Below the pieces are notes generated by a model that had not been told where the DNA came from, made no database searches, and saw only the letters and a list, made by a program, of their open reading frames with translations. The translations under genes were made by a program, and so were the position numbers. A stretch of 64,000 nucleotides of DNA from positions 248,001-312,000 of the forward strand of contig NZ_QYUO01000001.1 of the NCBI RefSeq assembly GCF_003591035.1, given 5' to 3'. This stretch comes from Noviherbaspirillum saxi (GTDB lineage: Bacteria; Pseudomonadota; Gammaproteobacteria; Burkholderiales; Burkholderiaceae_D). Positions 1-13,127 of this stretch are shown piece after piece (the first letter of the stretch is position 1; each line of letters begins with the position of its first letter).

Positions 1-1299
1 AATCGTCAGCAAGGGCGTTTTCGGCGACAGCTTTTCCGCCTTGACCGCCGTACCGAACCATGCGCGAATCTGATCGGATGGGACCGGCGACGATAGCGAC
101 CATGTCAGTTCATGATTGCTCAGTTCGGCGGCAAGCTGGTTCTTGCCATTTTCAAATTCCACCACGCGCACCGTGTCGCCGGCGTTGACGCGCCAGTTGA
201 AAGCGCCGGCCGCAAACTTGACCGTTGCCGTGTAGTCATACCGTTTGCTGAAAGTTTGCGCGCCGAGCCGGGCACTGTCGCCGCCGCTCCATTCCGGCCA
301 TTCGTCGAGCACCTTGGTCCGATACCAGCCTTCGTCGGTTTCGATCAGCCAGGTGAAGCCGCCGCGCGGATTGTGCATCAGGTATTCGGTCCAGCTTTCG
401 CCTTCATCGTCGCTGCGCGTCATCACGCCGATGATTTCATGCGAGGCGTTGCCGATCTTCGCACTGGCGCCCAGTTCCAGCGTCGTGCTGGCTGCGGCCA
501 TCCGGTGTCCTGCCTCCAGCACGATGGCTACCCGGGTCGTGGTATCGACCTGCGAACGGCAGCTTGGACAAATAATTTCGCGCGTGACGCCCGGTACGAA
601 GCGTACGCCGCTGCCGCAGGAAGGGCAGGCCAGCGCGTCAACCTTTTGCCGGATCTTGCCGGCGCTGTCGCGCACCGTGTCGTCATCGCGCAGCAGTTGG
701 CATTGCAGCTGTTCCAGCGTCACGCTGTTGCCGGCATAGATGGCCGGCCGTTCCGATTCCGAATAATCGAGCGTCAGAAAACTCTTGTCGCGACGGAAGT
801 CGGCGACCTTCGCCTGCCAGCCTGCGCCGACGCGGTAAGGCAACTCGCCTTCGCCGCCGGTGCATTCCGCGCTGCGGATATCGGATGCGATGAAGTTCTG
901 GCCGAGGATGGGATAGGCATGTCCCGGCTGCAGTTCGTCGAAGGCCGGCAATGCGCGTTCATCCTGCTTTTCAAAGGTCAGCGTGTACTGGCCGGAGGCA
1001 TCCGACAGCCATGCCGGACGGCCATCGTCGAAGTACACATACCATTCGTTCCAGATGCCTTCCGCGTAACGCAGCTGAATGCGGCCAATGACGGTGAACG
1101 CGACCTTGCCGTATTGCCCGGCGGTGCCGATCTGCAGCGGCGAATAATCTTCCAGCACGGCCGACATGCGGCCCATGTCCTTGACCGCGTCCGCATCCTT
1201 GAGCACGGTGGTCTTGCAATACTCGCATACCGCCATGACCGAGGCATGCGATTTGAAGATAACCGACGCGCCGCAGCTCGGGCAGGAAACATTCTGCAT
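1..1299 (-). CDS. DUF4178 zinc-ribbon protein (3' end outside window)
   Basis: The frame is open from an ATG at 1299 to the window edge, giving 433 codons and no stop. The protein begins MQNVSCPSCGASV and carries two zinc-ribbon-like pairs: CPSC/CEYC near residues 6-27, and CPSC/CPSC near residues 225-247. Each is followed by a beta-rich region of the kind seen in DUF4178 proteins (for example a WNEWYVYFDDG stretch near residue 80 and a matching WTEYLMHNPRGG stretch later), so the domain appears twice. It lies 11 bp downstream of the SPFH gene on the same strand and is probably in one operon with the SPFH and DUF350 genes. The function of DUF4178 is not known to me. No signal peptide is visible, so a cytoplasmic or membrane-peripheral role is likely. 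Confidence 0.8.
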   Translation of the reverse strand, partial: MQNVSCPSCGASVIFKSHASVMAVCEYCKTTVLKDADAVKDMGRMSAVLEDYSPLQIGTAGQYGKVAFTVIGRIQLRYAEGIWNEWYVYFDDGRPAWLSDASGQYTLTFEKQDERALPAFDELQPGHAYPILGQNFIASDIRSAECTGGEGELPYRVGAGWQAKVADFRRDKSFLTLDYSESERPAIYAGNSVTLEQLQCQLLRDDDTVRDSAGKIRQKVDALACPSCGSGVRFVPGVTREIICPSCRSQVDTTTRVAIVLEAGHRMAAASTTLELGASAKIGNASHEIIGVMTRSDDEGESWTEYLMHNPRGGFTWLIETDEGWYRTKVLDEWPEWSGGDSARLGAQTFSKRYDYTATVKFAAGAFNWRVNAGDTVRVVEFENGKNQLAAELSNHELTWSLSSPVPSDQIRAWFGTAVKAEKLSPKTPLLTI

Positions 1300-1310
1300 C
1301 TACACGCGCC

Positions 1311-2363
1311 CTAGCCGATCAATTTTTGCAGTACTTTCGCCTTGGCGTCGTCATAGTCGCTTTGCGAGATCAAGCCTTTGTCGAGCAAGCCTTTCAGTTT
1401 TTCGAGGCGGGCTTCCAGCGAATCCTCGGCTGGCTGCACCGGAGTTGCAGCGGCCGCTGGCGCGGCAGGAGCAGCAGCAGGAGCAGGTGCGCCCGCGCCC
1501 AGACCTTGCGCCATCACCTGACCGACCGCCATCCCGGCCGACAGGCCGGCGCCGAGACCGGCCAGCCCGCCTTCGTTTTGCGCGGCCAGCGGAATCGCTT
1601 CTGCGGTCTGGAAACGGGTAAAGCCTTCCATCTTGCCCGCGCTGAGGCCGCCTTTCATGCCGGCGCCGATGCGTGCATCGAGCGCCTGCTGCAATTCATC
1701 CGGCAGGCTGATACTGCCGACATTGAATTCGTCGAGCGCAAGGCCATAGCGCGCGAAGGCGGTACCGAGGTCGCCCTTGACCTGCTGCGCCATCAGCGCC
1801 TGGTTGGCCGCCATGTCGAGGAAGGGAATATTGGATGCGCCGAGCGAAGTCGCCATCGTCGACAGCATGATCCCTTGCAACTGGGCTTCGACATCGTCGC
1901 GCGTATAGATTTCGCGGGTGCCGCATAGCTCGGTGAAGAACAGTTTTGGATCGGCCACGCGATACGAAAACATGCCGAATGCGCGAATGCGCACCATGTC
2001 GAAATCCTTGTCGCGGATCGTGATCGGCTGCGGTGTTCCCCATTTGCGGCCGGTCTGGATGCGGGTGCTGAAGAAAAACACATCGGCCTTGAATGGCGAT
2101 TCGAACAGCTTGTCCCAGTTGCGCAGATAGGTCAGCACCGGCAGCGTGCGGGTGGTGAGCGTGTAATTGCCGGGACCGAAGACATCGGCGATCTGGCCTT
2201 CATTGACGAATACCGCGATCTGCGATTCGCGCACGGTCAGTGCCGCGCCATTCTGGATTTCAAACCCCTCCATCGGAAAGCGCCAGGACAGCACGCCTTC
2301 GGCATCCTCGTTCCATTGCAGGACATCGATGAATTGTTTCTTGATGAAAGAAAAAACGCTCAT
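1311..2363 (-). CDS. SPFH-domain protein with C-terminal SHOCT segment
   Basis: The product is 350 aa. The start at 2363 (MSVFSFIKKQFIDVLQW) follows an AAGGA ribosome site in frame; the reading frame extends further upstream but runs into the DUF350 gene. Residues about 20-270 match the YdjI-like SPFH family often annotated as 'virion core protein'. An Ala/Pro-rich linker then leads to a C-terminal SHOCT-like helix pair (EARLEKLKGLLDKGLISQSDY) at about residues 315-350. SPFH proteins form membrane-associated rings or scaffolds. There is no N-terminal membrane segment, so membrane association may depend on partners such as the adjacent DUF350 protein, 26 bp upstream. The exact role is unknown. 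Confidence 0.85.
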   Translation of the reverse strand: MSVFSFIKKQFIDVLQWNEDAEGVLSWRFPMEGFEIQNGAALTVRESQIAVFVNEGQIADVFGPGNYTLTTRTLPVLTYLRNWDKLFESPFKADVFFFSTRIQTGRKWGTPQPITIRDKDFDMVRIRAFGMFSYRVADPKLFFTELCGTREIYTRDDVEAQLQGIMLSTMATSLGASNIPFLDMAANQALMAQQVKGDLGTAFARYGLALDEFNVGSISLPDELQQALDARIGAGMKGGLSAGKMEGFTRFQTAEAIPLAAQNEGGLAGLGAGLSAGMAVGQVMAQGLGAGAPAPAAAPAAPAAAATPVQPAEDSLEARLEKLKGLLDKGLISQSDYDDAKAKVLQKLIG

Positions 2364-2389
2364 GATGGGTATCCTTGGCTGGTTGCTGA

Positions 2390-2785
2390 TCAGGAAATGC
2401 AGGCGGCGTTGATCGCGCCGACCGAGAGGGAAATCGCGCCGAGCATGCCGCCGAAGGCGATGTTGCCCGATTCGATGTGTTCTTTCGAAATGCGCATCAG
2501 CTTGGTGGTAACGATATACGCCAGCAGCTGCACCGCCAGCGCGCCTATGGTCCAGAGCACGAAAGGCACGATGCTGGAGGTATGCAGTATGCAGGACGCA
2601 ACCGTCAGTGAAAAGCCGAGCATCGCGCCGCCCAGCGACAGCGCGGCCGCGCAATTGCCCTGGCGGATCAGCAATACTTCGTTGAAAGGCGTGACGCGGG
2701 TATAGACCACAAAGAAAAAAACCAGCAGGATGCCGGCAGTCAGCAGATAAATGAGATAGTTGGCAAACGCGGGTAGAGTATTCAT
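2390..2785 (-). CDS. DUF350 (YjfL-type) inner membrane protein
   Basis: The product is 131 aa with about four hydrophobic segments (near residues 8-28, 48-70, 75-95 and 108-130), typical of the DUF350 family in length and layout. It is the first gene of the leftward unit DUF350-SPFH-DUF4178 and faces the aminopropyltransferase gene across 143 bp. DUF350 proteins recur next to SPFH, DUF4178 and polyamine genes, but no biochemical role is established. The membrane location is well supported; function is inference from context. Confidence 0.85.
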   Translation of the reverse strand: MNTLPAFANYLIYLLTAGILLVFFFVVYTRVTPFNEVLLIRQGNCAAALSLGGAMLGFSLTVASCILHTSSIVPFVLWTIGALAVQLLAYIVTTKLMRISKEHIESGNIAFGGMLGAISLSVGAINAACIS

Positions 2786-2870
2786 CGCTGGATAGTCATC
2801 GCTCGGGAATTTGGCTTGCCAATATACTAATCCAATTATTACCTCTGTCCAGCATTTTCCAGAGCATCGT

Positions 2871-2891
2871 TAATTCATCGCTAATTCATCG
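2871..2891. repeat. 11-bp direct repeat in the divergent promoter region
   Basis: The decamer TAATTCATCG occurs at 2871-2880 and again at 2882-2891, one helical turn apart. It lies just upstream of the aminopropyltransferase start in the 143-bp gap between the two divergent units. A TATACT at about 2824-2829 in the same gap could be a -10 element. The direct repeat could be a regulator site or a chance duplication. Confidence 0.4.
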
Positions 2892-2928
2892 ATTTCACAA
2901 GCCTACGGCCCCGCCACTGCCCGCATTC

Positions 2929-4440
2929 ATGAGCAAGCATATCCTGATCCTTTCCGTCTTCGTGGTCGCGTCCTGCGGCCTGGCTTACGAGCTGATCGCC
3001 GGCGCGCTGTCGAGCTATCTGCTCGGGGATTCGATCTTCCAGTTCTCGACCATCATCGGCTGCTATCTGTTTGCGATGGGCGTCGGCGCGCATCTGTCCA
3101 AGTACGTGAAGGACGAGGATGTGCTGGCGCGCTTCATCGATATCGAACTGGCGGTGGGCTTGGTCGGCGGCCTGTCGGCGGCGGTGCTGTTCCTGACCTA
3201 TGCATGGATGGGCGCGCCGTTCCGGACCATGCTGTATGTGCTGGTATTTCTGGTAGGGATGTTTGTCGGCACCGAAGTGCCGCTGGTAATGCGCGCGCTG
3301 AATGCACGGCAAACCAGCTTCAGCGAATTGGTGAGCAAGGTGTTGACCTTCGATTACCTGGGCGCGCTTGCCGTATCGGTATTGTTTCCGCTGGTGCTGG
3401 CGCCGCATCTCGGGCTGGTGCGCACCGGCTTCCTGTTCGGCATGTTCAATGTCGGCGTTGCGTGCTGGACGATCCATGCATTCCGCCGCGAATTGCGCGA
3501 TGTCGGCGCGCGGATGCTGCGTGCCAGCGCCGTGTTGTTTGTGCTGGCCGGCGGCTTCGCCGCATCTGATCGTCTGGTGGTGTGGGGCGAGCATGGATTG
3601 TTCGGCGACGACATCGTTTTTTCCACATCGACGCCGTATCAGCGGCTGGTGATCACCAAATGGAAAGACGATCTCCGGCTCTACATCAACGGCAACCTGC
3701 AATTCTCGTCGCGCGATGAATACCGTTATCACGAAGCGCTGGTGCATCCGGCATTGGAGTCTCTGCCTTGGGCACGCTCGGTGATGATACTCGGCGGCGG
3801 CGACGGGCTGGCACTGCGCGAAGTGCTGCGCTATCCGAATATCCGTCATGTGACGCTGGTCGACCTCGACCCCGCGATGACCGAGGCGTTCGGCAGCCGT
3901 GAAGAACTGGTGCGTCTCAATCATGCGTCGCTGCGCGACCCGCGCGTCACGGTGATCAATACCGATGCGGCGCTGTGGCTGCAAAACACCGACCAGGTAT
4001 TCGATGCGGCGATCATCGACTTTCCCGACCCGTCGAGCTTCGCGCTCGGCAAGCTGTATTCGGTGCCTTTTTATAGCATGTTGAAAAAACATGTGGCCGC
4101 ACGCGGCTTGGTCGCGGTCCAGTCGACCTCGCCGTTTTTTGCCCCGCATGCCTACTGGACCGTCGATGCGACACTGCGCGAAGCGGGTTTCCAGACCTCG
4201 CCCTACCATGTGTATGTGCCCTCGTTCGGCGAATGGGGTTTCATCATGGCGGCGCCGCAGCAGAAATTTGCAGCGCCCAGCCAATACCGTTTGACGATGC
4301 GTTACCTGAACGGCGAAACGACGAAGGAAATGTTTACCTTCCCGCCCGACATGCCGCGCCTCGACATGCCGCCGAACCGGCTCGATACCCAATCCCTGGT
4401 CCAGCAATTCGAGCGCGACTGGCGGCAGGCGGTGCGCTGA
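2929..4440 (+). CDS. Membrane-anchored polyamine aminopropyltransferase (spermidine synthase-like)
   Basis: The product is 503 aa. Roughly residues 1-215 form about seven transmembrane segments, followed by a spermidine synthase fold. The SAM-binding glycine motif ILGGGDGLALREVL lies near residue 288, then the acidic strand VTLVDLDPAM, and DAAIIDFPDPSSFALGKLYS supplies the Asp/Pro catalytic-loop region. Enzymes of this family move the aminopropyl group from decarboxylated SAM to an amine. Long proteins with an N-terminal membrane domain fused to this fold are a recognised subgroup, whose substrate is often untested. The gene ends in TGATG overlap with the amine oxidase gene, so the two are translationally coupled. 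No SAM decarboxylase is visible in the window. Confidence 0.88.
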   Translation: MSKHILILSVFVVASCGLAYELIAGALSSYLLGDSIFQFSTIIGCYLFAMGVGAHLSKYVKDEDVLARFIDIELAVGLVGGLSAAVLFLTYAWMGAPFRTMLYVLVFLVGMFVGTEVPLVMRALNARQTSFSELVSKVLTFDYLGALAVSVLFPLVLAPHLGLVRTGFLFGMFNVGVACWTIHAFRRELRDVGARMLRASAVLFVLAGGFAASDRLVVWGEHGLFGDDIVFSTSTPYQRLVITKWKDDLRLYINGNLQFSSRDEYRYHEALVHPALESLPWARSVMILGGGDGLALREVLRYPNIRHVTLVDLDPAMTEAFGSREELVRLNHASLRDPRVTVINTDAALWLQNTDQVFDAAIIDFPDPSSFALGKLYSVPFYSMLKKHVAARGLVAVQSTSPFFAPHAYWTVDATLREAGFQTSPYHVYVPSFGEWGFIMAAPQQKFAAPSQYRLTMRYLNGETTKEMFTFPPDMPRLDMPPNRLDTQSLVQQFERDWRQAVR

Positions 4441-6056
4441 TGCAAAGGCGGTCCTTTTTGCTGGGGGCAGGCGCGGTCGCCGCGCTCGGTTCCGTGGCCG
4501 GCTATTGGCGCTGGCAGGAAATCACGCCGTCCATTCACATGCCGGGCATGCAGCAAGGGCATTTCCTGCGCGATCTTGCGCGCGATCGTCGTGCCTTGCC
4601 GCCGCCTTCGTATGCAATCGACACCGATGTCGTGATCCTGGGTTCCGGCATTGCAGGACTGACCACCGCATGGAAGTTGCGCAAGGAAGGGCACAGCGAC
4701 TTTGTGATGGTCGACGGACCTCAACCCTATGGCAATGCCGCCGGCGGCAGTCATGGCGACCTTGCCTATCCGACCGGCGCGCATTACCTGCCGTTGCCCA
4801 CGCGCGACGCGTTCCATGTGCGCGAAATGCTGCATGACCTCGGGATATTACTGCGCAATCCCTCGGCCGAACGCCCGTATTACGACGAACGTTTCATCCT
4901 GCATGCGCCGCAGGACCGCATATTGTTCGATGGCAGCTGGCAGGAAGGCTTGATTCCGAAAGATGGCGTACCGCAATGGGAACTGGATGAGCATGAACGC
5001 TTTTTCCAGGCAATGGCGCACCTGAAAGCGACGCGCGGTGCCGATGGCAAACCATTGTTCGTACTGCCCAGCGCCCTGTCGTCCAGCGATCCCGCATGGC
5101 AGGCCCTTGACCGGATCAGCTTCCGGCAATGGCTAGAGCAGGCCGGCTACAAGTCGCCGACCTTGCACTGGTATCTCGACTACACCTGTCGCGACGACTA
5201 CGGAACCGGCTATGAACAGACTTCCGCTTGGGCGGGACTGCACTATAGCTGCAGCCGGGATGGTCTGGCGGAAAACGCAGCCACCGGCGAATGGCTAACC
5301 TGGCCTGGAGGTTTGCAGCCCATCGCCTCCGCATTGAGTGATAAGGCCGGCAAGCAGCGCAAGGATGCCAGCGTGGCGACATTGAAGCCGAATGGAAAAC
5401 GGGTCGAAGTCCTCTGTGTCGAGTTCGTGAACGGACAGCCACGCAGCTTTCTTGTGCATGCGCGAAAGGCCGTATGCGCAATGCCGCTGTTCGTTGCGGC
5501 GGGAATCGTTGATGCAATCCGGGACTACGGCTTCGATCCTGCCGCGCACATGCCCGCCTATGCGCCATGGATGGTGACCAATTTCCTGATGCGTTCCTTT
5601 CCACGAGAGAAGGCCGAAGCGCCACTATCTTGGGATAACGTCGTATATCAGGGCAAGGGATTAGGTTATGTCGTGTCGACGCATCAGGATATCCGCGTGA
5701 CGCCTCCAGAAAAGACTGTATTCAGTGCCTACATGGCCCTATCGCGCCATACACCGGACGACGGCCGCAAGTGGCTGGATACGGCGTCGCCGGATGAATT
5801 GCTTGCGCTTGCGGCAAGCGATCTCGAAGCGGCCTACGGCGCAGAATTCGGCAGGTATGTCGAGCATGCGGATATCACGTTGCGGCCCCATGCCATGTGC
5901 TCGCCGCGCCCCGGGTTCCGTTCCAATGCCGGCTTGCGTGCCTTGCGCGAGACCGACGGTTCCGTACTTTTTGCACATAGCGACCTGTCGGGGTTCTCAG
6001 TGTTCGAGGAGGCGGCGTGGTGGGGATACCGGGCGGCGCTGAAGCTGCTTGGATAG
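4440..6056 (+). CDS. Tat-exported FAD-dependent amine oxidase-like protein
   Basis: The product is 538 aa from the ATG at 4440, which overlaps the TGA of the preceding gene; the frame is open further upstream but that part is inside the aminopropyltransferase gene. The N-terminus MQRRSFLLGAGAVAALGSVAG is a twin-arginine signal. A Rossmann FAD motif (VVILGSGIAGLTTAWKL) begins near residue 63, with a closing FAD segment near the C-terminus (VLFAHSDLSGFSVFEEAAWWG). The family includes monoamine and polyamine oxidases, so together with the coupled upstream gene it may oxidise a periplasmic polyamine. The substrate is not shown by the sequence. A decayed copy of its C-terminal part lies at 7397-7569. 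Confidence 0.85.
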   Translation: MQRRSFLLGAGAVAALGSVAGYWRWQEITPSIHMPGMQQGHFLRDLARDRRALPPPSYAIDTDVVILGSGIAGLTTAWKLRKEGHSDFVMVDGPQPYGNAAGGSHGDLAYPTGAHYLPLPTRDAFHVREMLHDLGILLRNPSAERPYYDERFILHAPQDRILFDGSWQEGLIPKDGVPQWELDEHERFFQAMAHLKATRGADGKPLFVLPSALSSSDPAWQALDRISFRQWLEQAGYKSPTLHWYLDYTCRDDYGTGYEQTSAWAGLHYSCSRDGLAENAATGEWLTWPGGLQPIASALSDKAGKQRKDASVATLKPNGKRVEVLCVEFVNGQPRSFLVHARKAVCAMPLFVAAGIVDAIRDYGFDPAAHMPAYAPWMVTNFLMRSFPREKAEAPLSWDNVVYQGKGLGYVVSTHQDIRVTPPEKTVFSAYMALSRHTPDDGRKWLDTASPDELLALAASDLEAAYGAEFGRYVEHADITLRPHAMCSPRPGFRSNAGLRALRETDGSVLFAHSDLSGFSVFEEAAWWGYRAALKLLG

Positions 6057-6691: not shown

Positions 6692-7384
6692 ATGTCGAAA
6701 CGTGGTGACATTACCACCGGTCGCTTAATTTATACGTGCAATTGCGGCTGGATGGACTTAGGCCACATGCGGTCTTCAGAAACCCGACCACATGGAAGTG
6801 CACGATACTTATGGGAAGACGTGCTGCATGAGCGCGGGCTGACCATGCCTGTTTATCCGGGCAGTCACGTTATCGGATATAGGCAATCAATGACCCGCTT
6901 CGGCATCACCTCTGAGCACTTTAAGGCCTACTGGATTAAGAAAGGATTGACAGTAGCGCGAAGACAAGCGGTTGCCTTATCGGTCTTTATGGAAGTCACT
7001 CATGGTTTCGAAAGCCTTCAGCAAAAATATTCGCTTATCACGGACAGCGGATATAGTGAAGAAGACCTCGTGTCTAACTTGGTAGGGTTCTACAGTGTAG
7101 TGATGGGATTGAATTGGGCGGCTACGTGCAAACCTGTCTCGAAGGAAGCATCCTTTGCGATTTGGGATATGCACGGTTCTGTCGGATCACGTAAGAACCG
7201 ATCGTTTAAGCCCAATTTTTATCCGTGCAAGGAATGTAAAGACACTCATGGAATCGAAACTCCCAGTTTTCCGGCGATATTCAATGTAATTCAACCCGCA
7301 AGAAAGGAGATTGATTTCGGTGATGTAGGAAAGAATACTCTGGTTCCACGCCAGCTACAAACAGCTCTTTATCGTCATCTGTAA
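6692..7384 (+). CDS. Hypothetical protein with CNCGW motif
   Basis: The product is 230 aa, with a good ribosome site (AAGGAAATTCAC before the ATG). The N-terminus has the cysteine motif IYTCNCGWMDLGH; a second pair CKEC lies near residue 179. Together with nearby His residues these could form a metal site. There is no signal peptide. The middle region (ARRQAVALSVFMEVTHGFESLQ) is helical and followed by a conserved-looking DLVSNLVGFYSVVMGL stretch. I do not recognise the family with certainty. The gene is AT-rich compared with its surroundings and ends 13 bp before the decayed amine oxidase fragment. Confidence 0.65.
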   Translation: MSKRGDITTGRLIYTCNCGWMDLGHMRSSETRPHGSARYLWEDVLHERGLTMPVYPGSHVIGYRQSMTRFGITSEHFKAYWIKKGLTVARRQAVALSVFMEVTHGFESLQQKYSLITDSGYSEEDLVSNLVGFYSVVMGLNWAATCKPVSKEASFAIWDMHGSVGSRKNRSFKPNFYPCKECKDTHGIETPSFPAIFNVIQPARKEIDFGDVGKNTLVPRQLQTALYRHL

Positions 7385-7891: not shown

Positions 7892-8281
7892 TTACTCGCC
7901 GGCGGGAACGCGCTTGTCTTGCGCCGCTGCCAGGGCTTCCTGGCGCACCTGGTCGCGGGTCTTGGTCGATGCGACGTTGATGAACTCGAAGAATTCCGGG
8001 GTGCGGTTGCCGGCATACTGGCCATCCGCCTGCGCTTTTTCCAGTTCGGCGCGCACTTCGGCGCGGGTCTTGGTGGAGGCAACGTTATTGAATTCGACGA
8101 ACTCGGTCTGGCGTGCGATCTGGCCGTTGGCATTGGCCTGGTTCATTTCAGCGATCACTTCAGCGCGGGTCTTGGTCGATACGAAGTTGCTGTGATCAAC
8201 GTAAGGATAGGTGTTGTCGGCCAAAGCAGAACCGGCAGCGGCAAAAACAGCAACAGCAGCAATCAGATTTTTCGCATTCAT
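7892..8281 (-). CDS. DUF4148 exported repeat protein
   Basis: The product is 129 aa with a clear signal peptide (MNAKNLIAAVAVFAAAGSALA, cut after residue 21). The mature part has three copies of a roughly 33-residue unit built on F(V/E)..STKTRAEV..E: STKTRAEVIAEM, STKTRAEVRAEL and STKTRDQVRQEA. This is the DUF4148 family, common in Burkholderiales as small periplasmic or secreted proteins of unknown role. It is monocistronic, with its own terminator downstream and 217 bp of apparently gene-free DNA on the other side. Confidence 0.88.
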   Translation of the reverse strand: MNAKNLIAAVAVFAAAGSALADNTYPYVDHSNFVSTKTRAEVIAEMNQANANGQIARQTEFVEFNNVASTKTRAEVRAELEKAQADGQYAGNRTPEFFEFINVASTKTRDQVRQEALAAAQDKRVPAGE

Positions 8282-8498: not shown

Positions 8499-9953
8499 CT
8501 ACCAGCCGCCGCCCAGCGAGCGGATCAGCGCGACCGTCGTGGTGGCGCGTGAACCGCGCAATTGCACGGCGCTGCGCTCGACTGCCGCCAGATTGCGCTG
8601 GGCGTCGAGCAGTTCCAGATAACTCGAGCGTCCTGCGGTGTACAGCTTGTTCGCCAGATCGGCCGATCGTCTGGCCGACGCAAGCGCTTCATCGATCGCC
8701 TCGGCCTGTCCGGCCAAAGTGCGCAAGCCAACCAGGTTGTCTTCGACTTCGGCAAACGCGGCCAGCACGCTTTGCCGATAGCCGGCCACCGATTCTTCCA
8801 GCGCGGCCTGGCTGCGCACGATATTGGCTTGCGTGCGGCCACCGTCGATCACCGGCAGCGACAGCAGCGCGCCGATCACCCAGCTGCGGCTGCTCCACTT
8901 GAACAGATCCGACAAATCGTCCGATTCGCCGCCCCCGGCGCCGGTCAGCCGCAACGCGGGAAACATCGCCGAGCGCGCCACGCCGATCCGTGCGTTCGCC
9001 GCGACCATCGCACGCTGCGCGGCCGCGATATCCGGTCGCCGTTCCAGCAAGGCCGAGGGCAAGCCGGCCGGAATGCCGGGTAACCGCGACGACGCGAGCA
9101 GCGGATTGCTGCTGGCGCCGAATGCCGCTGCCGGACGGCCGAGCAATACCGCCAGCGCATGTTCCAGCTGGGCGCGCTGCCGTTCCAGCGCGATCGCTTC
9201 GGAGCGTATCGTCGACAGTTCGGTGCGCGCGCGCGACACGTCCAGTTCCCCAACATCGCCCAGGTCGTAGCGGCGCTGGTTGATGCGCACATTTTCATCG
9301 CGCAGCCGCACCGTCTCGTTCAGGAACGACAGCTCGGCATCGGCCGCGCGCAGCCGGAAATAGGTCTGCGCGACATCGGCTTGCAAGGCCAGCAGCACCG
9401 AGCGGTAGGTCGCTTCGCTGGCCGCTGCATCCGCCTGAGCGGCGCTGACGTTGTTGCCCACCCGTCCGAACAGGTCGACTTCATAACTGGCGGTCAACCG
9501 CCCTTGCCAGACCGTTGCCGGGGCGACCGCCGTGCCTGCCGGCAGACCGCGCGATAGCGCCGAGTTGCGCAAGCGTTGCGGACCAAATTCCGCATTCACG
9601 GCTGGCATGCGATCGGCTTCGGCGACGCCGGCAATCGCGCGTGCCTGCTTGACCCGTGCGGCGGCGGCGGCGAGGTTGGCATTGGCCGCGGTGGCGTCGG
9701 CGATCAGCTTGTCGAGCGTGCTGTCGTTGAAGGCTTTCCACCATTCGCCGCGCGGCTGGGCTTCGGCGGGCTCGGCCGGCTTCCAGCGCGCGGCATCGGC
9801 CATGTTCGCCTCCTTGAAACCGGACGGGATCTCGATATCCGGCGCGCGCAATTCCGGTGCCGCGCATCCCGCCAGAACCATGGCCGCCAGCAACGGCGTC
9901 AGCAGTTTCGGAAACAAGGTATTCATCTTCATGTCATCCATCGTTATCCACAT
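8499..9953 (-). CDS. Outer membrane channel lipoprotein of RND efflux system (OprM/OprC type)
   Basis: The product is up to 484 aa. The N-terminus contains a lipoprotein signal with lipobox LAGC (MNTLFPKLLTPLLAAMVLAG before the cysteine). The start is uncertain: ATGs at 9953, 9941, 9932 and 9926 are all in frame, and the first directly abuts the pump stop codon. The body has the two repeated outer membrane factor domains, with segments such as YEVDLFGRVGNNVSAAQADA and ERRPDIAAAQRAMVAANARI typical of the NodT subfamily. It is the last gene of the efflux operon and would complete a tripartite pump across both membranes. Confidence 0.92.
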   Translation of the reverse strand: MWITMDDMKMNTLFPKLLTPLLAAMVLAGCAAPELRAPDIEIPSGFKEANMADAARWKPAEPAEAQPRGEWWKAFNDSTLDKLIADATAANANLAAAAARVKQARAIAGVAEADRMPAVNAEFGPQRLRNSALSRGLPAGTAVAPATVWQGRLTASYEVDLFGRVGNNVSAAQADAAASEATYRSVLLALQADVAQTYFRLRAADAELSFLNETVRLRDENVRINQRRYDLGDVGELDVSRARTELSTIRSEAIALERQRAQLEHALAVLLGRPAAAFGASSNPLLASSRLPGIPAGLPSALLERRPDIAAAQRAMVAANARIGVARSAMFPALRLTGAGGGESDDLSDLFKWSSRSWVIGALLSLPVIDGGRTQANIVRSQAALEESVAGYRQSVLAAFAEVEDNLVGLRTLAGQAEAIDEALASARRSADLANKLYTAGRSSYLELLDAQRNLAAVERSAVQLRGSRATTTVALIRSLGGGW

Positions 9954-12900
9954 TTACGCGACTCCCTTCGAAGCGGATTCAACTGTCGGAACAGGTTTTT
10001 CCAGTCGCTTCGCAAGATTGCGCAACAGCACATAAAACACCGGTGTCAGGAACAGACCGAACAGCGTCACGCCCAGCATGCCGGCGAACACCGCGACGCC
10101 CATCGCGTGGCGCATTTCCGCGCCGGCACCGGTGGAAAACACCAGCGGTACCACCCCCATGATGAACGCGATCGAGGTCATCAGGATCGGACGCAGGCGC
10201 AGGCGGCAGGCTTCCAGCGCGGCTTGCACTACGGTGCGTCCATGGTCTTCCAGTTCCCGTGCGAATTCCACGATCAGAATCGCGTTCTTCGACGCCAGTC
10301 CGACCAGTACGAACAGCGCGATCTGCGTGAAGATGTTGTTGTCGCCGCCGGTCAGCTTGACGCCGAGCAGTGCGCACAGGATCGACATCGGCACGATCAG
10401 GATCACCGCCAGCGGCAGGGTCCAGCTTTCGTACTGCGCAGCCAGCACCAGGAAGACCAGCAGCACGCACAGTGGGAACACGATCACCATGGTGTTGCCC
10501 GCCAGGATTTCCTGATAGGTCAGGTCGGTCCACTCGTAAGTGATGCCCTTGGGCAGAACTTCCTGCGCGATCTTTTCCATGGCTGCCTGTGCCTGTCCGC
10601 TCGATACGCCGGGCGCCGCACCGCCATTGATGTCGGCCGACACATAGGCGTTGTAGCGCTGCACGCGGTCGGGACCATAGCTGTCCTTCACGCGCATCAG
10701 CGACGACAGCGGAATCATTTCGCCCTTGTTGTTACGCACCTTCAGCTGCGCGATATCTTCCGCATGCGAACGATAGGGCGCGTCAGCCTGCACCTTGACC
10801 TGATAGGTACGGCCGAACTGGTTGAAGTCGTTCACATACAGCGAGCCGAGATTGATCTGCAGCGTCTGGTAGATCGTCGCCAAAGGCACTCCGAGTTGCT
10901 TGGCCTTGGTGCGGTCGATGTCGGCGAACAGTTGCGGCACATTGATTTGGAAGCTGGAAAACACGCCCGCCAGTTCCGGTGTCTGCCACGCTTTCATCTG
11001 CAGTGCCTGCACTGCCTTGTACAACTCGTCATAGCCGAGATTGGCGCGGTCCTCGATCATCAGCTTGAAGCCGCCGATGGTGCCCAGGCCGTTGACCGGC
11101 GGCGGCGGGAATACCATGATGAAGGCATCCTCGATACTGCCGAGCTTGGCATTGATCTGCTGCGCAATCGCGGCACCCGATTGATCGGCGGAGGTGCGCT
11201 GGTCGAAAGCATCCAGCCCGAAGAACACGATGCCGGCGTTCGGCGCATTGGTAAAGCCGTTGATCGACAGGCCGGGGAACGCGATCGAATCCTTCACGCC
11301 CGGTACCGACTTTGCCACGTCCGACATGCGGCGAATCACGGCATCGGTACGATCGAGCGAGGCGGCATCCGGCAATTGCGCGAAGCCGACCAGATACTGC
11401 TTGTCCTGACCGGGCACGAAGCCGCTCGGCACTGCCTTGAACACGAACACCGCGGCCACGCCTAATACCGCATACACCACTAGTGCCATCGCCTTGCGGT
11501 TGAGCACGGTTTTCACGCCGCCTTCGTAGCGTTCCGACGCGCGGCCGAAGACCCGGTTGAACCAACCGAAGAAGCGGCCGAACACCTTGTCCATGCCGCG
11601 CGTCAGCGCATCCTTGGGCGCGTCATGCGGCTTGAGCAATGCGGCTGCGAGGGCCGGCGACAGTGTCAGCGAATTGAAGGCCGAAATCACGGTCGAGATC
11701 GCGATCGTCAGTGCGAACTGGCGATAGAACTGGCCGGACAGCCCGGACACGAAGGCGATCGGCACGAACACCGCGCACAGCACCAGCGCGATGGCGATGA
11801 TGGGACCGCTGACTTCCTTCATCGCCTGCACCGTCGCGTCGCGCGGTGACAGGCCTGCATGGATGTTGCGCTCGACGTTCTCGACCACCACGATCGCATC
11901 GTCGACCACGATACCGATCGCCAGCACCAGCCCGAACAGCGACAGCGTGTTGATCGAAAAGCCGAACAGCAGCAGCACGGCAAAGGTACCGACGATCGAG
12001 ACCGGCACCGCGACCAGCGGAATAATGGACGCGCGCCAGGTCTGCAGGAAGATAATGACCACCAGCACCACCAGCGCAATCGCTTCCAGCAGCGTATGAA
12101 TCACCGCGCGGATCGACTCGCGTACGAACTGCGTCGGGTCATACACCACGCTGTATTCGACGCCTTCGGGGAAGTCTTTCTTCAATTCTTCCATCTTGGC
12201 GCGCACGTCGGCCGAGAGTTGCAGTGCATTCGACTGAGGCGCTTCAAACACTGCAATCGCCGCAGCGGACTTGTTGTTGAGCAGCGAACGCAATGCATAG
12301 TCGGTGGAGCCAAGTTCTACGCGCGCCACATCCTTGAGCAGCGTGACCGAACCATCGGCGCCAGTGCGCACGATGATGTTGCCGAACTCTTCTTCCGATT
12401 GCAGACGGCCTTGCGTATTGACGGTCAGCTGGAATTCCGCATTCTTCGACGGCGCGGCACCGATCACGCCGGCCGCAACTTGCACGTTCTGTTCGCGGAT
12501 GGCGGACACGACATCGCCGGCGGTCATGCTGCGCGCGGCGATTTTTTGCGGGTCGAGCCAGACACGCATCGCGTAATCGCCTGCACCGAACAACAGGGTT
12601 TCACCCATGCCCGGAATGCGCGACAACTGGTCCTTGATGTTGAGCACCGCGTAGTTGCGCAGATAGACATCGTCATAGCGGCCGTTCGGCGATGACAGGT
12701 GCACCACCATGGTCAGGTTGGGCGAGCTCTTGACCGTGGTGACCCCGATCTGCCGCACTTCTTCCGGCAGGCGCGGCAATGCGCGCTGGACCCGGTTCTG
12801 TACCTGGGTTTCAGCTTGTTCGACATTGGTGCCGACCTTGAACGTCACGGTCAGCGCCAGCGCGCCATCCGAAGTCGCTTGCGAAGACATGTACAGCATG

Positions 12901-13127
12901 TTTTCCACGCCGTTGATCTGTTCTTCCAGCGGGCCGGCCACCGTTTCCGAAATGACTTTCGGATTGGCGCCGGGATACATCGCGCGTACCACGACCGAGG
13001 GCGGCACCACATCCGGATATTCGGAAATCGGCAATTTGAAAATGGCCAGCACACCGGCCACGAAGATCAGGATCGACAGGACTGCCGCGAAGATGGGCCG
13101 ATCGACAAAAAATCTGGAAAAGTTCAT
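9954..13127 (-). CDS. RND efflux pump inner membrane transporter (MexF/BpeF type)
   Basis: The product is 1057 aa, full length for the HAE1 family. The N-terminus MNFSRFFVDRPIFAAVLSIL and segments such as LPISEYPDVVPPSVVVRA and ENMLYMSSQATSDGALALTV are closest in character to MexF/BpeF. The proton-relay region GIVVDDAIVVVENVERNI, with paired Asp in the fourth membrane helix, is intact. The gene order lipase-like protein, adaptor, pump, channel with a divergent LysR gene matches the bpeT-llpE-bpeE-bpeF-oprC and ceoR-llpE-ceoA-ceoB-opcM operons of Burkholderia, whose pumps export chloramphenicol, trimethoprim and fluoroquinolones. Substrates here are inference. Confidence 0.95.
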   Translation of the reverse strand: MNFSRFFVDRPIFAAVLSILIFVAGVLAIFKLPISEYPDVVPPSVVVRAMYPGANPKVISETVAGPLEEQINGVENMLYMSSQATSDGALALTVTFKVGTNVEQAETQVQNRVQRALPRLPEEVRQIGVTTVKSSPNLTMVVHLSSPNGRYDDVYLRNYAVLNIKDQLSRIPGMGETLLFGAGDYAMRVWLDPQKIAARSMTAGDVVSAIREQNVQVAAGVIGAAPSKNAEFQLTVNTQGRLQSEEEFGNIIVRTGADGSVTLLKDVARVELGSTDYALRSLLNNKSAAAIAVFEAPQSNALQLSADVRAKMEELKKDFPEGVEYSVVYDPTQFVRESIRAVIHTLLEAIALVVLVVIIFLQTWRASIIPLVAVPVSIVGTFAVLLLFGFSINTLSLFGLVLAIGIVVDDAIVVVENVERNIHAGLSPRDATVQAMKEVSGPIIAIALVLCAVFVPIAFVSGLSGQFYRQFALTIAISTVISAFNSLTLSPALAAALLKPHDAPKDALTRGMDKVFGRFFGWFNRVFGRASERYEGGVKTVLNRKAMALVVYAVLGVAAVFVFKAVPSGFVPGQDKQYLVGFAQLPDAASLDRTDAVIRRMSDVAKSVPGVKDSIAFPGLSINGFTNAPNAGIVFFGLDAFDQRTSADQSGAAIAQQINAKLGSIEDAFIMVFPPPPVNGLGTIGGFKLMIEDRANLGYDELYKAVQALQMKAWQTPELAGVFSSFQINVPQLFADIDRTKAKQLGVPLATIYQTLQINLGSLYVNDFNQFGRTYQVKVQADAPYRSHAEDIAQLKVRNNKGEMIPLSSLMRVKDSYGPDRVQRYNAYVSADINGGAAPGVSSGQAQAAMEKIAQEVLPKGITYEWTDLTYQEILAGNTMVIVFPLCVLLVFLVLAAQYESWTLPLAVILIVPMSILCALLGVKLTGGDNNIFTQIALFVLVGLASKNAILIVEFARELEDHGRTVVQAALEACRLRLRPILMTSIAFIMGVVPLVFSTGAGAEMRHAMGVAVFAGMLGVTLFGLFLTPVFYVLLRNLAKRLEKPVPTVESASKGVA

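Follow-up and report, generated by a model that had tools for sequence, protein, structure and literature searches.

A conserved divergent six-gene unit of Noviherbaspirillum saxi that joins a membrane-domain aminopropyltransferase to an S-adenosylmethionine decarboxylase and a twin-arginine flavoprotein

The left end of the window, by which we mean the whole 64-kb stretch of the Noviherbaspirillum saxi genome that was analysed (contig NZ_QYUO01000001.1), together with a short region just outside it, carries a divergent cluster of six genes. They encode an S-adenosylmethionine decarboxylase (AdoMetDC, SpeD), a DUF4178 protein, an SPFH-SHOCT protein, a DUF350 membrane protein, an aminopropyltransferase with a membrane domain (TM-SpeE) and a flavoprotein with a twin-arginine (Tat-type) N-terminus. 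These six genes form one conserved unit. With a probability of about 0.5, we read them as a single membrane-linked system of aminopropyl transfer with later external oxidation. The source genome comprises 6.5 Mb in 3 contigs and is 99.8% complete.

Gene layout and conservation

The features of the locus are as follows, in window coordinates unless marked otherwise.

G000:C1:247235-247690 (L003:11235-11690; 311-766 bases left of window base 1), minus strand: AdoMetDC (SpeD), 151 amino acids (aa), TIGR03330 132 bits
1-1299 (whole gene L003:11851-13299), minus strand: DUF4178 protein, 482 aa, two DUF4178 stretches, 89.5 bits
1311-2363, minus strand: SPFH/band-7 protein (Band_7_1) with C-terminal SHOCT domain, 350 aa, PF13421 248.3 bits, PF09851 28.3 bits (cut-off 27)
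2390-2785, minus strand: DUF350 membrane protein, 131 aa, 112.5 bits
2786-2928, no strand: divergent gap between the two arms, 143 bp
2929-4440, plus strand: TM-SpeE, membrane-domain aminopropyltransferase, 503 aa, NF002956 674 bits (cut-off 472)
4440-6056, plus strand: flavoprotein with twin-arginine (Tat-type) N-terminus and monoamine/putrescine-oxidase fold, 538 aa

The left arm reads leftward on the minus strand from DUF350 through SPFH-SHOCT and DUF4178 to SpeD, which lies beyond base 1. The window edge splits the DUF4178 gene, so that 150 of its bases fall outside. In the right arm, the stop codon of TM-SpeE and the ATG of the flavoprotein overlap as TGATG (4438-4442). A preliminary description, made from the letters of the window, had already placed the five genes and their 143-bp gap correctly and had recognised the coupling of the right-arm pair; the S-adenosylmethionine decarboxylase that it proposed to look for just past base 1 is indeed there.

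Conservation was examined by scanning named genome contigs for the flavoprotein. The scan gave at least 583 confirmed relatives, of which the best 80 were kept, and the locus set is therefore biased towards close relatives. These loci served to retrain profiles of the six proteins, which were then used to search them; 66 of the loci have at least 8 kb to the left. All six genes were found in 58 of these 66 well-flanked loci. Among the other eight, three lack SpeD only (L063, L070 and L091), one has DUF4178, TM-SpeE and the flavoprotein, and four have the flavoprotein alone, counting L081, where a weak TM-SpeE match was discounted. The divergent layout of the window is shared by 56 of the 58 complete loci; the two remaining sets (L086 and L092) run in one direction and have short DUF350 matches (E ~1e-12). 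The 14 shorter loci comprise three with all six genes, seven with a partial set up to the contig end and four with the flavoprotein alone. The complete set occurs in Oxalobacteraceae, Burkholderia, Achromobacter, Zoogloea, Neisseriales and Moraxellaceae, and two loci from genomes outside the class (L133 and L135) carry all six genes in one direction. The view of the preliminary description that the two divergent arms belong together is thus borne out, and the co-occurrence is not confined to close relatives.

The eight loci with a lone flavoprotein were followed by whole-genome searches, which revealed TM-SpeE elsewhere in seven genomes. One of these seven TM-SpeEs is split over two contigs, with each piece under the cut-off, and two lie about 17-18 kb from the flavoprotein, apparently on the same contig. 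The eighth genome has only a 299-aa transferase-type frame. The presence of TM-SpeE in seven of eight such genomes indicates that the flavoprotein is tied to the transferase.

No seventh conserved partner was found in 35 chosen loci, where an ABC-ATPase-like group appears in 9 and every other group in at most 5. A chance neighbourhood was rejected on the recurrence of the six-gene set, including its other gene orders and strands. An isochorismatase-family frame (L003:10679-11350, minus strand) overlaps the end of the AdoMetDC gene; such a protein occurs in only one other of 83 loci and is therefore placed outside the unit.

In the 143-bp gap, the minus strand has a single weak site that resembles a promoter. 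Of 67 gaps, 28 have elements resembling a -10 box on both strands, compared with 13.0 expected from single-base shuffles; the excess is weak, as the loci are related. Beyond this excess, no shared operator or regulatory motif was shown for the gap.

The decarboxylase and the membrane aminopropyltransferase

SpeD belongs to AdoMetDC class 1b by score, with 132 bits for TIGR03330 above the cut-off of 75.65, and contains the motif ESHISIHTWPE followed by a later Cys. In Thermotoga maritima AdoMetDC, the processing and catalytic residues are S63, H68 and C83 (PMC10407285). Among 61 listed cluster SpeDs, those of L086 and L092 are more diverged and read ESHLAVH(S/T)WPE...C. The Pro by which AdoMetDCs are reported to differ from arginine decarboxylases is presumably the one in TWPE. 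A cluster SpeD re-tooled as an ornithine or arginine decarboxylase is not favoured, since the AdoMetDC-type central motif is kept. The protein is the sole PF02675 (class 1 AdoMetDC) match in the genome, where class 2 AdoMetDC was not searched, and nspC of the carboxyspermidine route has no match there.

To follow TM-SpeE across the phylum, 398 genomes were drawn, and TM-SpeE is present in 44 of them. Class 1 AdoMetDC was found in 33 of the 44, a few matches being weak (E 1e-11 to 1e-15) though all above the cut-off, versus 2 of 20 same-order genomes without TM-SpeE. Among the 11 TM-SpeE genomes without class 1, eight have class 2 AdoMetDC, versus none of 11 genomes without TM-SpeE. An AdoMetDC of either class is thus present in 41 of 44 TM-SpeE genomes (Fisher p 1e-6 for class 1 and 0.001 for class 2, ignoring kinship). 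This co-occurrence supports decarboxylated S-adenosylmethionine (dcAdoMet) as the donor. One genome of the collection, G224, carries elsewhere a 448-aa single frame (L094, G224:C1:3828538-3828891) in which, by eye, AdoMetDC is joined to a spermidine-synthase-like part; the same genome also has a TM-SpeE/flavoprotein cluster without linked SpeD.

Residues 2-211 of TM-SpeE are predicted to form about seven membrane helices, and a spermidine-synthase-like domain (Pfam 265-446) comes after them. The structure model (predicted local distance difference test score, pLDDT, 87.7; predicted template-modelling score 0.63) shows about seven long helices plus the catalytic domain, which matches the Thermus aminopropyltransferase 1uir with a template-modelling score (TM-score) of 0.73-0.74 by target length. 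Residue conservation was assessed in 115 sequences, 75 from the loci and 40 from the phylum set. Residues D314, D346, D364, D367, Q398 and W436 are kept in 74/75 and 40/40 sequences. The GGGDG motif is likewise kept in 74/75, with G290 replaced by Ala in 4/40 of the phylum set, and Y426 is present in 74/75, being Tyr in 36/40 and Phe in 4/40 of the phylum set. The single exception among the 75 is a distant second copy in L031. In known enzymes, these transferase residues hold dcAdoMet and the amine; by fold and by these residues, TM-SpeE falls within the SpeE superfamily.

The membrane part is conserved as well. E116 and D142, both within predicted membrane helices, are kept in 74/75 and 40/40 sequences, and E21 (37/40) and R122 (39/40) are nearly invariant. 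Because E116 and D142 are invariant, we infer that the membrane domain may hold a polar site rather than serve as a simple anchor. TM-SpeE is the only full-length PF01564 match in the genome. The partial PF01564 matches L006 and L007 lack GGGDG and the D..DP motif, so a second true aminopropyltransferase was rejected.

The flavoprotein and the membrane platform

The flavoprotein was modelled with a pLDDT of 92.9, and its top Foldseek matches are amine oxidases. The best are bacterial monoamine oxidase 8p84 and putrescine oxidase 2yg3-2yg7, with protoporphyrinogen oxidase (2ivd) ranking eighth. SpdH of Pseudomonas aeruginosa stands at rank 28 of the 50 best, with a TM-score of 0.64 that equals the highest listed; root-mean-square deviations over the listed matches are 5-9 Å. 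The protein is similar in overall fold to 2yg3 and 8p84 (TM-score 0.59-0.64 by query length), but differs from them in its low identity of 15-20% across the aligned fold, the lack of a conserved lysine, the twin-arginine N-terminus and a residue set of its own. This set, conserved in 40 members, includes H115-Y116, Y248, R251-D252 and W398-D399-N400. PF01593 is matched by 32/40 family members at 0.001.

The twin arginine lies at positions 3-4 in 40/40 aligned flavoproteins, and an RR pair is found near the N-terminus in 82/83, the sole miss being truncated by a contig end. A lipobox-like Cys follows in 24/83 by a pattern that misses LPGC forms; the window protein has none. The lone flavoproteins at L081, L084, L085 and L087, from Azonexus/Dechloromonas and other proteobacterial genomes, have LAGC or LVGC lipobox-like motifs and adjoin a gene that by eye resembles ftsX. 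Relatives of the flavoprotein are rare: of 274 genomes of the class, 3 have one at E<=1e-10, and the source genome is among these. Among the matches listed, the closest named relatives are from Paucimonas (68% identity) and Oxalobacteraceae. A role in anti-phage defence was dismissed, as PADLOC gave one weak flavin-domain match.

The left arm encodes the putative platform. In the DUF4178 protein, two CxxC pairs accompany two DUF4178 domains, and there is one hydrophobic stretch at the C-terminus. It had been called a zinc-ribbon protein; zinc-ribbon models match it, all of them under their cut-offs. The SPFH protein, the start codon of which is in place, contains a glycine/alanine-rich linker ahead of the C-terminal SHOCT domain, and the DUF350 gene is single copy in the genome.

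Neighbourhoods of TM-SpeE were compared in the phylum survey, where 40 of 45 matches (44 genomes) were taken with flanks, some shortened by contig ends. DUF350 was found near TM-SpeE in 35 of these 40 loci, DUF4178 in 15, SpeD in 13, the flavoprotein in 10 and SPFH in 9. In addition, a PspA group lies near TM-SpeE in 15/40 loci (PF04012 140 bits in one member tested). PspA and SPFH are mutually exclusive, with 15 and 9 of 40 loci and an overlap of 0 (p 0.015, uncorrected for kinship), and the flavoprotein accompanies SPFH in 8 of its 10 loci and PspA in none. From this exclusion, SPFH and PspA look like alternative membrane platforms, although lineage alone could give the pattern. None of the six proteins of the window unit matches PspA; the rest of the genome was not searched for it. 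The protein type adjoining PspA in 15/40 loci, exemplified by L161:5796-6548 (minus strand), gives 17.7 bits for DUF4178 in one member, below the cut-off, and is probably a diverged DUF4178 relative.

Further into the window lie a 230-aa protein with a weak DUF4056 match slightly below the cut-off (6692-7384, plus strand), a small protein with three DUF4148 matches (7892-8281, minus strand) and what looks by eye like a resistance-nodulation-division efflux pump with an outer-membrane factor (8499-13127, minus strand).

Known systems, proposed mechanism and alternatives

Clusters of AdoMetDC, a fusion of a major-facilitator-type (MFS) domain with spermidine synthase, and DUF350 were reportedly described by Li et al. 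in 2019, and the window locus contains such a set of TM-SpeE, AdoMetDC and DUF350. These fusions are said not to replace spermidine synthase, spermidine being absent. Class 1b and class 2 AdoMetDC reportedly occur with the same partner, and a similar pattern is seen in our survey. That study is said not to centre on SPFH, DUF4178 or a Tat-type flavoprotein. The apparent mentions of DUF350 in two Pseudomonas papers in fact concern DUF3509.

The unit had been put forward as the best candidate for an undescribed system, which it is not: Ravi et al. 2024 (PMC11237479) already list operons in which TM-spermidine-synthase occurs with DUF350 and DUF4178, as well as a variant that has band-7/SHOCT together with AdoMetDC and polyamine oxidase. 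The window unit is a variant of this published kind. It shares with their PspA operons (7TM-spermidine-synthase, DUF350, DUF4178) the same families and the tying of aminopropyl chemistry to membrane scaffolds, and with their variant the replacement of PspA by band-7/SHOCT and the presence of AdoMetDC and an oxidase. However, that variant is described beside ATP-grasp operons, whereas no ATP-grasp protein is found in the present unit, and its 2TM stretch was not detected in the window SPFH protein by a simple hydropathy scan. Therefore, the match is incomplete. The passages of Ravi et al. on these operons say nothing of a divergent layout of six genes, of counts for the mutual exclusion of PspA and SPFH or of the link between lone flavoproteins and TM-SpeE across a genome, and the main text has neither twin-arginine nor words beginning with Tat. 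The present analysis adds the limits of the unit at six genes, the counts, the mutual exclusion of PspA and SPFH, the association with two AdoMetDC classes, the twin-arginine motif and the lack of a conserved lysine.

The nearest printed analogy is in P. aeruginosa, where SpeD2/SpeE2 were proposed to be paired with the Tat-exported spermidine dehydrogenase SpdH (PMC11107197). As in the present unit, AdoMetDC and an aminopropyltransferase are combined with a proposed periplasmic flavin adenine dinucleotide (FAD) enzyme, there for a cell-surface product. SpeE2 is reported as a thermospermine synthase (PMC11107197), with norspermidine synthesis in PMC12189927; speD2-speE2 lies upstream of pmrAB, and SpdH has 620 aa. 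Our literature search found no paper naming the acceptor of TM-SpeE.

In the system that we propose, SpeD would decarboxylate S-adenosylmethionine to dcAdoMet, as its family and motif suggest. The catalytic domain of TM-SpeE, taken as cytoplasmic, would then transfer the aminopropyl group of dcAdoMet onto an acceptor that carries an amine and is handled by the membrane domain. Free putrescine would be a less likely acceptor than a molecule that is held in the membrane or exported, because of the result attributed to Li et al., the invariant charged membrane residues and the separate SpeD-SpeE-like frame of G224. The flavoenzyme, presumably exported by the Tat pathway, would oxidise the product in the periplasm, as suggested by the twin-arginine motif, the fold and the tie to TM-SpeE; it could be a dehydrogenase or desaturase just as well as an O2-using oxidase. 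SPFH-SHOCT, DUF350 and DUF4178 may serve as a membrane platform or sensor, with PspA in the position of SPFH in other lineages. A narrower version is offered tentatively, and we hold it to be possible rather than probable: working from the cytoplasmic side, the membrane enzyme would aminopropylate an amine held in the membrane, for example that of a lipid head group, and the exported flavoenzyme, close to the membrane, would remove or convert the aminopropyl group in the periplasm, giving dcAdoMet a second, polyamine-independent use.

Several observations weigh against the proposed system. None of the present analyses identifies the acceptor, and the residues for dcAdoMet and the amine are kept, so that a free polyamine could still be accepted. 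In 30 of the 40 TM-SpeE loci, no flavoprotein gene lies in the fetched stretch (some stretches are short, and the rest of these genomes was not searched); the oxidation step is therefore probably optional. The genomes behind the co-occurrence counts are related to one another, the counts are uncorrected for kinship, and 7 of the 20 comparison genomes without TM-SpeE are small (1.2-2.2 Mb). Neither AdoMetDC class was found in the TM-SpeE genomes G303, G321 and G430. The first two (loci L160 and L161) are 99-100% complete; G430 is 71% complete. For the flavoprotein, which had been described as a Tat-exported amine oxidase, the RR motif and the amine-oxidase fold hold, but the window protein has no PF01593 match at E<=0.01 and scores 18.2 bits against the Pfam Tat model, under the cut-off of 22.7; this model matches 1/40 family members at 0.001. 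The best PDB match by sequence profile is 2b9w, a 'putative aminooxidase' which we take to be a fatty-acid isomerase. A conserved active-site lysine near the flavin is typical of amine oxidases. No lysine column of 30% or more was found in the 40 flavoproteins besides positions 79 and 82, which lie at the end of the first FAD-binding helix, and this absence counts against a textbook polyamine oxidase. When aligned by profile with L166, an amine oxidase of the same genome, the flavoprotein was matched as far as residue 356, short of the lysine position.

TM-SpeE might instead make an ordinary polyamine (spermidine, norspermidine or aminopropyl-agmatine) and export it through the membrane domain, for the Tat-type flavoenzyme to oxidise to an aldehyde in the periplasm. 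This is close to the making and oxidising of a polyamine at the envelope suggested in the preliminary description. It agrees with the intact transferase residues, with the fold of the flavoprotein, which has putrescine oxidase and SpdH among its best matches, and with the like proposal for SpeD2/SpeE2 and SpdH (PMC11107197). In addition, the genome lacks any further class 1 AdoMetDC or full PF01564 protein and has no nspC, so the unit is a possible spermidine source, class 2 AdoMetDC and homospermidine routes having not been searched. The succession of transfer and oxidation is plausible, but the polyamine oxidase is weakened by the absent lysine, and no oxidase gene is nearby in three quarters of the TM-SpeE loci. 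Moreover, the fusions reportedly do not replace spermidine synthase, and in G224 the unlinked frame would make this spermidine supply redundant. We regard this explanation as doubtful.

Alternatively, the flavoprotein could be a desaturase or isomerase of lipids or isoprenoids that does not act on the aminopropyl group, the cluster remodelling lipids in two separate ways. Weak matches to HpnE, protoporphyrinogen oxidase and desaturase-type models, far below the cut-off where one is given, point in this direction, as do the profile match to 2b9w, the missing lysine and the flavoprotein's own residue set. However, the best fold matches are amine oxidases, albeit with 2ivd at eighth place, most family members match PF01593, and TM-SpeE is missing in only one of the eight genomes with an unlinked flavoprotein, which makes this explanation unlikely. 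That the two arms are unrelated neighbours sharing a gap is highly improbable: the gap has shown no common regulatory motif and many TM-SpeE loci lack DUF4178, SPFH and oxidase genes nearby, but the six genes stand together in most well-flanked loci, the same partners recur in other orders and strands, and no additional gene is widely recurrent around them.

The presence of AdoMetDC is usually read as a sign that spermidine is made. In the present case, the sole class 1 AdoMetDC of a nearly complete genome lies beside a membrane transferase, and the enzymes of the 41 AdoMetDC-bearing TM-SpeE genomes belong to two highly diverged classes. Once the acceptor is found, the unit would caution against inferring spermidine from the presence of speD and speE-like genes. 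If the narrower, polyamine-independent version is true, the charge of the envelope would be changed reversibly, and an SPFH ring in some lineages, or PspA in others, would read or organise this change. Owing to the sharp six-gene boundary and the presence of the unit in named cultured Betaproteobacteria, the question is directly testable, and the identity of the acceptor would give a new envelope modification and a reason for the swapping of SPFH and PspA.

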